34,763 nt of DNA from Haloparvum sedimenti. GTDB taxonomy: Archaea; Halobacteriota; Halobacteria; Halobacteriales; Haloferacaceae. This document shows positions 31,845 to 34,763 of this stretch, one piece after another (the first letter of the stretch is position 1; each line of letters starts with the position of its first letter). The stretch spans positions 1-34,763 of the forward strand of contig NZ_LKIR01000042.1 in NCBI RefSeq assembly GCF_001462205.1, in the 5' to 3' direction. Made by a program: the position numbers and the translations under genes. Under the pieces are notes generated by a model. That model was not told where the DNA came from. It made no database searches and was given only the letters and a program-made list of their open reading frames with translations.

Positions 31845-31873
31845 CCGACCGTCCGCTGCCGCCGAACTGAAAA

Positions 31874-31928
31874 TTTTAGAAATTCTGAAAATCTCGTGAG
31901 GTTTGCGCATTTTGGACATGGTTAAGTA
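31874..31928 (+). promoter_or_regulatory. AT-rich imperfect palindrome and TATA-like box upstream of parA
   Basis: TTTTAGAAATTCTGAAAA (31874-31891) contains the palindrome AGAAATTCT and is the most AT-rich stretch in this gap. It is followed by TTAAGTA (31922-31928). Partition operons are usually autoregulated, so the palindrome is a candidate operator; it could equally be the end of the trx transcript. Confidence 0.35.
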
Positions 31929-31951: not shown

Positions 31952-32047
31952 ATGACGAGAGCGCACGAGCCAGCCACCGATCGCCGCTCGCGGACGCCGA
32001 CACCGGGGTCCGAGAACGGACGGCGATGTCGAGGAGGGGTCGAGTAA
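31952..32047 (+). CDS. Possible 31-residue leader peptide ending at the parA start
   Basis: A 31-codon frame starts at ATG 31952, 24 bases after the TTAAGTA box (leaderless spacing). It ends in TAATG, sharing one base with the parA ATG at 32047. The overlap suggests translational coupling. Its product is Arg/Pro-rich and third-position GC is lower than in true genes nearby, so it may be chance. Confidence 0.25.
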   Translation: MTRAHEPATDRRSRTPTPGSENGRRCRGGVE

Positions 32048-32871
32048 TGGGCCGAGCGGTCAGCGTCTCGCTCCAGAAGGGCGGCGTCGGGAAGACCACA
32101 GTCGCGATCAACCTCGCGGACGCGCTTGCGGCACGGGACAACGAGGTGCTGCTCGTGGACTTAGACCAACAGGGGAACGCGACCGAGGGGGTCGGTCTCA
32201 AGGACGTCTACGAGAACGCGAGCCCGAACGTCGGCGACGTGCTCACGGACTCGGACCCCGTCGACGCCCGCGAGGTGATCGTCGACCGCGACGCATTCGA
32301 CGTGTTGCCGGCCCACGTCGACCTGGACGAGACTGCGGAGAAGATCCGGAACTCGACGTTCGGGATGCTGTGGGTGCGCCGGCGCATCGTCGAACCGCTG
32401 CTGGACGAGGCGTACGACTACGTCGTGATCGACTCGCCGCCCAGCCTCGGTCCCCTCTCTGACGCCTCGCTCATCGGCGCCGGAAACGTCGTCGTCCCGC
32501 TGTTGATGAGCGAACCGAGCGTGAGCGGGTTCGAGCGCATGTGGGAACATCAGGTCGTGCCGATCCGCAACGAGGTCGAACTCGACCTGCTGGCCATCGT
32601 GCCGAACGACCTCAGCGGCAACAACGAGGAGAAACGGATCATCCGCGACCTCGAGGAGTCGCAGTTCGGGGCATACCTCCCCTCATTCTGTCGTTCGACC
32701 GAGTTCGACGACCCCGACTCCCCGGGTCCGGGGCTTCGCCATCGGATCGCGTTCAGCCGGGCGTGGCGCGAGGGGAAGACCCTCCGTGAGTACGACCCGG
32801 ACAGCGACATGCTCGATCGGCTCGACGAGCTCGCGCGGATCGTCGAGGATGGAGGCGTGGCCGATGCCTGA
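32047..32871 (+). CDS. parA: ParA/Soj-family partition ATPase
   Basis: Walker-type ATPase of 274 residues that positions DNA by dynamic binding to the nucleoid. The deviant Walker A motif KGGVGKTT is at 11-18, the VDLDQQGNAT motif at 37-46, and VVIDSPPSLGPLSD is the Walker B region. ATG 32047 is chosen as GGAGG (32033-32037) lies 9 bases before it; the longer frame from 31939 has no site. No N-terminal HTH is present, as in small type Ib ParA proteins. It overlaps the next gene by 8 bases, and a direct-repeat array follows, together suggesting a partition cassette. Confidence 0.92.
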   Translation: MGRAVSVSLQKGGVGKTTVAINLADALAARDNEVLLVDLDQQGNATEGVGLKDVYENASPNVGDVLTDSDPVDAREVIVDRDAFDVLPAHVDLDETAEKIRNSTFGMLWVRRRIVEPLLDEAYDYVVIDSPPSLGPLSDASLIGAGNVVVPLLMSEPSVSGFERMWEHQVVPIRNEVELDLLAIVPNDLSGNNEEKRIIRDLEESQFGAYLPSFCRSTEFDDPDSPGPGLRHRIAFSRAWREGKTLREYDPDSDMLDRLDELARIVEDGGVADA

Positions 32872-33514
32872 CGAGAACCGCTTCGCCGGGCTGACCGACG
32901 CGATGGAGGAGGAAGCGGAGGCCGAGGAAACAAAGGTTGACGAGGCGGAGGCCGACGAAGGGACCGACGACGCTAGCGACGACGCTAGCGAGCCCGCCGC
33001 TGACGCCGAACCGGCGGCTGGCGTGGATTCCGCCTCCGCTTCCGACTCCACCTCCTCTTCCGACCCCACCTCCTCTTCCGACCCCACCTCCTCTTCCGAC
33101 CCCACCTCCTCTTCCGACCCCACCTCCTCTTCCGACCCCACCTCCTCTTCCGACTCCACCTCCGCTTCCGACTCCACCTCCGCTTCCGAATCGGCCGCGG
33201 CCGACGCGGGTGAGCCGGAGGACGCGGACGCCGAAGGGGACGCCGCGAAGGCCGGAGAGGCGACTGACGATATGGACCCTGTCGAAGTGCCGGCGTTCGC
33301 GTTCGAGGAGGCGTCGCCGAAGTCCATCTACGTCCGCGACGAAACGCTCGCGTTGCTGGAGGACGCGGAGTTCGAGGTCGAGGCTGCGCTCCGGCGGGAC
33401 CGACAGATCCGAAACGTGACCGGGCGGGAGTTCCACGACGCCGCAGTTCGCGTTATCGCCGACCACGCGGAGGAGATCGCTGAGGAGATCGTTCGCCTTC
33501 GCGAGGAAGAGTGA
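32864..33514 (+). CDS. Putative partition adaptor (ParB-role) with SSSDPT repeats and RHH-like C-terminus
   Basis: Acidic protein of 216 residues that overlaps parA by 8 bases; GGAGG (32850-32854) sets ATG 32864. Three parts are seen: a short start MPDENRFAGL that could contact ParA; a very acidic low-complexity linker with tandem SSSDPT hexads at about 60-107; and a folded end (139-216) with strand KSIYVRDE (153-160) and two helices (LALLEDAEFEVEAALRR and REFHDAAVRVIADHAEEI), compatible with a ribbon-helix-helix DNA-binding dimer. No ParB nuclease-like or HTH domain is present. Place and layout match centromere-binding adaptors such as ParG, omega or SegB, but the family assignment is inference. 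I recall related unnamed proteins beside ParA in other haloarchaea. Confidence 0.75.
   Translation: MPDENRFAGLTDAMEEEAEAEETKVDEAEADEGTDDASDDASEPAADAEPAAGVDSASASDSTSSSDPTSSSDPTSSSDPTSSSDPTSSSDPTSSSDSTSASDSTSASESAAADAGEPEDADAEGDAAKAGEATDDMDPVEVPAFAFEEASPKSIYVRDETLALLEDAEFEVEAALRRDRQIRNVTGREFHDAAVRVIADHAEEIAEEIVRLREEE
33041..33184. repeat. Eight tandem 18-base units coding Ser/Asp/Thr hexads
   Basis: Five identical units of TCCGACCCCACCTCCTCT (33059-33148) are flanked by one variant copy before (33041) and two after (33149, 33167). Serines here use TCC and TCT rather than the TCG and AGC codons common nearby, as expected of a recent slippage expansion. Confidence 0.92.
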
Positions 33515-33533
33515 CGGAGCGCCTCGAGGGACA

Positions 33534-33950
33534 CACCGGTCTGCAAGTGTTCCGGGAGTGAGCCTCGACGGGGATCCGAGGCGAACCCCACACACCACCG
33601 TGCAAGTGTTCCTGAGACGCCCGGTGCCTGAGCCACTCGATCGCTCGGCCCGGTGCCGTTCGTACCGGTCTTCGCACGACCATCGATCGTTCTTGTGGCC
33701 TTCCTTCTGATCTTTCTTCTGGACTTTCTATCGTTCTTGTCGCCGGTCCGTCGTGCTTTCCGTCGTTCTCGCGGTGTCCTTTGACGATGCGTTTTGCCCA
33801 GGCGGACACCCCCGTGCAAGTGTTCGAGTGGCTGTTCGGAATGGACAGCGAAACTGAATACGGCCGTATAGCGCGCTGTTTCCCGGATCGAAGCGAAGTG
33901 GCAGGGCCGAGAACACCGGTCTGCAAGTGTTCCAGGAATGAGCCTCGACG
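33534..33950. repeat. 37-base near-identical duplication around repeat copies 1 and 4
   Basis: Segments 33534-33570 and 33914-33950 match over 37 bases with two differences. Both include a TGCAAGTGTTC core, the preceding CACCGGTC and a following GAGTGAGCC-like flank, so this part of the array grew by copying larger blocks. Confidence 0.8.
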
Positions 33951-34201
33951 AGAGATCCGGACCGGTCCGGAGACACCCACCACCCTGCAAGTGTTCTGGA
34001 AGGGGGAGGGACATCGGGAGAAGAGGAACATCGGGAAGAAAGAGAAACACCGGTTGGTGGACTATCGGACACACACCCACCACCCTGCAAGTGTTCTCGG
34101 GTGAGAAAGGGCGGGAAAATCGGTCGTTAACGGGGTGTCGGTCGGACCCCCACCACCCTGCAAGTGTTCCGTCGGCGAAGCCGGTTCGACGAATCGGCCG
34201 C

Positions 34202-34266
34202 GAAGACGGAACACCTCGCGGCCGTGAAGACGGAACACCTCGCGGCCGTGAAGACGGAACACCTCG
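34202..34266. repeat. 24-base tandem repeat, three copies
   Basis: GAAGACGGAACACCTCG starts at 34202, 34226 and 34250, with GCGGCCGT between the copies. It contains GGAACAC, which matches the first half of the reverse complement of the main core (GAACACTTGCA), so it may hold inverted half-sites. Confidence 0.85.
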
Positions 34267-34326
34267 GCCAATTACCCCTTGAATCGGGGGATCTGGTCGA
34301 CTGATCGAAACGGACACCCACCACCC

Positions 34327-34484
34327 TGCAAGTGTTCTGGAGCAGCGCCACGAGACGAGTATCCACAGAGCGACACAGTGGAACGACCACACACGCACAC
34401 CACCCTGCAAGTGTTCTGGAGCAGCGCCACGAGACGAGTATCCACAGAGCGACACAGTGGAACGACCACACACGCACACCACCC
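34327..34484. repeat. 79-base perfect tandem duplication carrying the core repeat
   Basis: Bases 34327-34405 and 34406-34484 are identical, each starting at a TGCAAGTGTTC core. Perfect identity over 79 bases indicates very recent duplication. Confidence 0.9.
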
Positions 34485-34523
34485 TGCAAGTGTTCCAAGT
34501 TACAGACCGGAAGGGAAGGACAA

Positions 34524-34625: not shown

Positions 34626-34763
34626 TCAGGTGAACCGCCAGAGGTTCTGCTGCGTCTCGTCGGAGCCGTGGGGCGCCTCGTAGGAGGTCGCTTCGCCCTC
34701 CTTGTGGTGTTGAAGGATTTCCCAGACGTTGCTCGGGAGGGCGTCGCTGTAGTCCGATTTCTG
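34626..34763 (-). CDS. Unidentified protein, C-terminal 45 residues (5' part beyond window)
   Basis: A minus-strand frame is open from the window edge to a TGA at 34626-34628, with acidic haloarchaeal composition and GC-rich third positions. It ends ...NLWRFT. The visible part (LPSNVWEILQHHKEGEATSYEAPHG) has an alpha-helical look but matches no family I can name. As it faces the repeat array and partition genes, a replication or plasmid-maintenance role is possible but not shown. Confidence 0.6.
   Translation of the reverse strand, partial: QKSDYSDALPSNVWEILQHHKEGEATSYEAPHGSDETQQNLWRFT

Follow-up and report, generated by a model that had tools for sequence, protein, structure and literature searches.

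In Haloarcula hispanica, oriC2D is a 722-bp region with 11 boxes located downstream of cdc6E (Wu et al., PMC3936714). Its deletion proved impossible in the presence of oriC2, and it reduced the copy number of an oriC2-driven plasmid, probably via titration of Cdc6E (PMC3936714). Three such boxes were reported for H. lacusprofundi, and a plasmid with oriC2 and an H. hispanica host that itself contains oriC2 proved incompatible (PMC3936714). According to passages of a survey of the origins beside orc/cdc6 genes in 15 haloarchaea, origin boxes of these organisms bear a G-string and their usual layout is an inverted arrangement around an AT-rich stretch (PMC3528665).

Among partition systems, the closest described ones are the bacterial type Ib systems and archaeal SegAB. 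In type Ib, the centromere consists of short repeats, precedes the operon and serves as binding site for a small ribbon-helix-helix (RHH) protein, the mobile N-terminus of this protein activates ParA, and the centromere-binding proteins double as repressors (PMC5016525). The centromeres of archaeal chromosomes and plasmids were listed as an outstanding question in a 2016 review (PMC5120986).

The window, as the analysed stretch of 34,763 nucleotides from Haloparvum sedimenti is called here, contains a parA gene, a small adaptor gene, an array of ten repeats and the 3' end of an orc1/cdc6 gene. It is very probable that these belong to two independent modules lying side by side, an oriC2D-type origin module and a parA-adaptor partition module.

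The ten-repeat array and the orc1/cdc6 gene

Ten exact copies of TGCAAGTGTTC were found between 33542 and 34495, all of them on the plus strand (33542, 33601, 33815, 33922, 33986, 34086, 34159, 34327, 34406 and 34485), just as an earlier note on this DNA had described; the extended site that it mentioned (CACCACCCTGCAAGTGTTC) was confirmed for most copies. Dinucleotide shuffles contained on average 0.22 matches with one mismatch allowed, compared with the ten exact ones observed. On the minus strand the box reads GAACACTTGCAGGGTGGTG, which is GAACACTTGCA with a G-rich end, the G-string being of the halophile type. Within the array, a 24-bp unit is present three times (34195-34266) and a 79-bp unit with one box is duplicated at 97% identity (34314-34471). 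These duplications suggest recent growth of the array.

The boxes lie directly downstream of an orc1/cdc6 gene that ends at 34626. The minus strand of 34626-34763 codes for the final 45 residues of the Orc1/Cdc6 protein; the window ends inside the gene, the remainder of which lies past it, with the start at position 36045 of contig C81. Over the last 45 residues, identity with the C-terminus of the H. hispanica Orc (locus L202) is 61%, and the N-terminal 289 amino acids (locus L009) share 84% identity with the chromosomal Orc of that species. The gene is broken by a run of N that starts exactly at the window end (34764 onward; L009:4765-5177). Its length is incompatible with one continuous reading frame, so that the N may mark an assembly gap of undefined length.

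Beyond the window, further copies of the motif were located on contig C81 at 36088 (two mismatches), 36144, 36580 (inverted), 47890 and 47935. The boxes at 36144 (+) and 36580 (-), upstream of orc, are inverted around the AT-richest 200 bp of L009. The two most distant ones (C81:47890-47950; L009:17891-17946) share one orientation; they are origin boxes as well and lie 12 kb off the origin.

The resemblance to oriC2-cdc6E/oriC2D of H. hispanica extends to the Orc protein (84% over 289 aa), the box core, the inverted boxes that enclose AT-rich DNA ahead of the gene and the same-orientation cluster downstream, with 10 boxes here and 11 there. The locus differs from it in the span of the boxes (about 950 bp instead of 722 bp), in the parA-adaptor pair beyond the cluster and in the two extra boxes 12 kb away. 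With the origins surveyed in PMC3528665 it shares the link between Orc family and box sequence, the G-string boxes and the flanking on both sides that is seen at some orc genes, whereas a parA-adaptor pair is not treated in the passages of that survey drawn on here. The ten-repeat array is an already known kind of element, namely a cluster of origin recognition boxes, and the window adjoins a regulated replication origin.

The linkage of the motif was evaluated over the family and the class. Clusters of at least four copies, looked for in 171 family genomes, occurred only at Orc homologues at least 83% identical, where they surround the gene. Across the class, the motif is present at every locus whose Orc reaches 73% identity (29/29, window included). 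In nearly all of them, two boxes in inverted orientation lie upstream of the gene and a group in one common orientation lies downstream, where as many as 12 boxes are counted if two mismatches are allowed; the adaptor gene is present only in the window. The numbers of downstream sites at the Orc loci of H. hispanica (11) and H. lacusprofundi (three) agree with the published ones. In contrast, none of 38 other loci with a ParA at least 60% identical, a set in which a few species are represented twice, has more than a single stray copy (Fisher p of about 5e-18, which is no true probability because the rows are related). At the ten closest ParA-adaptor pairs (ParA 76-83% identical) the motif is absent, save for one stray copy 4 kb off.

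In another genome (G122), three or more additional origin boxes (L136:15275-15425) form a group on the downstream side, some 7 kb past the orc gene and its first box cluster. At a further locus, another ParA-like gene (34% identical) lies just past the downstream boxes of an orc of the same family (L138:6587-7081).

In nearly all Haloferax pairs retrieved, an orc gene of another family is found within a few kilobases, in either orientation, surrounded by its own boxes with a different repeat (AACAGCGGAC). The idea that every pair possesses its own downstream array was considered and rejected: in Haloferax, the arrays that separate adaptor from orc correspond to the boxes around the same orc, and pairs without an orc have none.

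The anatomy of the origin module and the linkage of its motif to the Orc family were directly established. The orc1/cdc6 gene belongs to the cdc6E (oriC2) family known from H. hispanica; its origin lies upstream and the ten-box cluster downstream. By analogy with H. hispanica, this cluster would bind Orc and reduce initiation at the origin by titration.

The ParA-adaptor pair

The parA gene (32047-32871, plus strand) encodes a Walker-type ATPase of 274 aa, recognized by Pfam as AAA_31 (1.5e-34) and related to ParA/Soj proteins of solved structure. The protein is short, it has no N-terminal DNA-binding domain, and its Walker motif comprises residues 11-18. The next gene (32864-33514, plus strand) encodes an acidic protein of 216 aa, the adaptor. 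The overlap between a small acidic gene and parA that had been noticed earlier amounts to 8 nt (32864-32871), and both the pair and the adaptor architecture are kept in relatives: a conserved N-terminal MPDENRFAGL, a variable acidic linker and a conserved C-terminal domain. With regard to the arginine finger that type Ib proteins have in their mobile N-terminus, R6 of the N-terminal motif is invariant in the close family and missing in several distant adaptors (e.g. DPFADL). The long Ser/Asp repeat linker pointed out in the earlier note is a genuine feature, since 18-bp tandem repeats coding for Ser, Asp, Pro and Thr occupy 33048-33191 on the plus strand, but it is seen in this genome only: relatives have acidic linkers that differ in sequence, vary strongly in length and lack the 18-bp repeat.

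When 60 genomes of the family and order were searched for the adaptor domain, 24 gave matches, almost all of which adjoin a ParA gene. Relatives of ParA were found on 139 plasmid records, which are haloarchaeal among the matches listed. One pair is on pHME505 of Haloferax mediterranei (E6P09_RS16675/RS16670). The neighbour genes of the pair are conserved only inside groups of close species. The genome itself contains a second, distant pair on contig C83 (L045:10765-12010; ParA 40-43%), with its own 9-bp repeats upstream, of another sequence (approximately GGGCTATTC).

The AlphaFold2 monomer model of the adaptor C-terminal domain (33281-33511, plus strand; pLDDT 85.9) shows an extended KSIYVR segment and then helices at 20-41, 48-61 and 63-76, all of them confident. 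The model is compatible with an RHH fold, which is possible for this domain. No match of the adaptor to the PDB was obtained by sequence, profile or fold (Foldseek), and profile searches in Pfam and NCBIfam gave no support for RHH. Direct comparison with omega and ParG sequences gave no support for it either. SegB, which was compared only through the PDB sequences and Pfam, gave no match either.

The anatomy is that of the type Ib systems ParF-ParG of TP228, delta-omega of pSM19035 and pCXC100 (PMC5016525): a short ParA, repeats upstream of the operon and a small downstream gene for a protein with a variable N-terminal part and a compact C-terminal domain. The locus differs from them in its 9-bp, nearly palindromic units, in the long acidic linker and in an adaptor without detectable sequence homology, for which RHH is, on the monomer model, only a possible fold. 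Archaeal SegAB (PMC5120986) likewise combines a gene for a ParA-type ATPase with a small overlapping archaeal gene and has its sites upstream. SegB binds separate imperfect palindromes, unlike the 9-bp units described here, and the adaptor has no sequence match to any PDB chain. On sequence grounds, the pair is probably a separate and widespread haloarchaeal module for partition with a new adaptor family. Concerning the pair or its 9-bp repeats, no published description was found in open-licence papers.

The 9-bp repeats upstream of parA

A candidate centromere or operator of the pair was located at 31869-31922 (no strand assigned). It consists of about six degenerate, nearly palindromic 9-bp units, in order GAAAATTTT, AGAAATTCT, GAAAATCTC, GTGAGGTTT, GCGCATTTT and GGACATGGT, with a TATA-like TTAAG directly downstream. 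In relatives, the region upstream of parA contains common short AT-rich words far above shuffled controls. In the autocorrelation of the 500 bp upstream of parA, a period of 9 or 18 ranked first at 36 of 44 loci, with a mean z9 of 4.75. In five control regions the same periods were strongest in 7-21 of about 42 loci, with a mean z9 of 1.1-1.5. Codon periodicity was discarded as the source of the signal, as the controls, coding ones included, raise multiples of three but show no excess z at 9 or 18. The array of the window itself is short and degenerate; 9 ranks first among the periods there, with a signal that is weak by itself (z = 2.2).

A 9-bp matrix was trained on 15 relatives, the window excluded, and was used to scan both strands of the 34.8-kb window and the retrieved loci. 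The best 4-unit match in the window starts at 31869 (score 31.3, the next one 12.7), and the best 6-unit match covers 31869-31922 (43.0, the next one 10.1), about 125 bp upstream of parA. Two of 200 column-permuted matrices also reached the local score of the window. For 11 loci outside the training set, the best match was upstream of parA in 10.

The repeat unit of the close family is approximately ACAAATTGT; distant families have others, such as GGGCTATTC, ACATTATCT and GAGGTAGCT. It was found that the similarity of the units tracks that of the adaptors (Mantel r = 0.61, with none of 2000 permutations as high; r = 0.40 for distant pairs). Part of this co-variation may reflect descent, related loci being non-independent. 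Additional 9-bp arrays with scores like those of the upstream ones occur 4.4-8.6 kb downstream of parA in L046, L048 and L151, and at about 1.3 kb in L160 and L161. They are possible secondary centromere sites away from the operon.

Alternative explanations and significance

The earlier note had described a partition cassette in which the TGCAAGTGTTC array acted as the centromere. The conserved pair, probably a partition module, stands; the array does not keep that role. A centromere would fit repeated sites on one strand that immediately follow the adaptor gene and extend over about 1 kb, but the motif is missing at the close pairs, is constant around an orc family that has the pair only in the window and, in other copies, makes up the inverted origin upstream of orc. 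The note had proposed looking for an array beside each haloarchaeal pair, and had held that a consistent lack of repeated sites near homologous pairs would tell against it; TGCAAGTGTTC is missing beside them. The array was therefore rejected as parS, and its being the centromere of the pair is extremely improbable. Judged from the DNA, the likelier centromere is the 9-bp array upstream of parA. It could also be supposed that the box array serves segregation or incompatibility as well, its neighbourhood with the pair being functional. Pair and orc are neighbours in nearly all Haloferax loci retrieved too, and the oriC2 incompatibility in H. hispanica (PMC3936714) points in the same direction. 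Such a shared mechanism is nevertheless quite improbable, as Orc family, box sequence and gene orientation vary from one such neighbourhood to another, an orc is missing near many pairs, and oriC2D of H. hispanica works without an adjoining pair.

Two further explanations concern the 9-bp repeats. They might be only an operator through which the adaptor regulates its own operon, with the centromere elsewhere; in the window and in several relatives the array is directly upstream of a TATA-like element, and several relatives possess more arrays kilobases off. We consider this unlikely, since many relatives have long arrays, in several blocks over hundreds of bases, beyond what an operator needs, and type Ib centromere-binding proteins also repress (PMC5016525). 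A little more doubtful is that the pair positions a cargo other than DNA, or is a regulator, while another protein binds the arrays. This would agree with an adaptor without homology to known centromere-binding proteins and with the presence of some pairs on contigs of chromosome size; against it stand the co-variation of adaptor and repeat unit and the occurrence of pairs on many large plasmids, often beside orc genes.

For the partition module, conservation of the pair, conservation of the 9-bp array and co-variation of adaptor and unit were directly established. The type Ib anatomy recurs here, with repeats ahead of parA and, behind it, the gene of a small protein that has an N-terminal motif, a linker and a compact domain, and we infer that the module operates likewise. 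The C-terminal domain of the adaptor would bind the 9-bp repeats upstream of parA and build the partition complex, its N-terminal tail would stimulate ParA across the flexible acidic linker, and the adaptor bound to the repeats would probably repress the operon.

Reading the ten-repeat array as origin boxes avoids a wrong centromere annotation. On balance, the chromosomes and megaplasmids of haloarchaea appear to share an undescribed partition system, composed of ParA, a new family of centromere-binding adaptors and centromeres of 9-bp repeats upstream of parA, the sequence of which co-varies with the adaptor. For the sorting of the many haloarchaeal replicons, the 9-bp arrays supply well-defined centromere candidates across many species; one of these, Haloferax mediterranei, has genetics.
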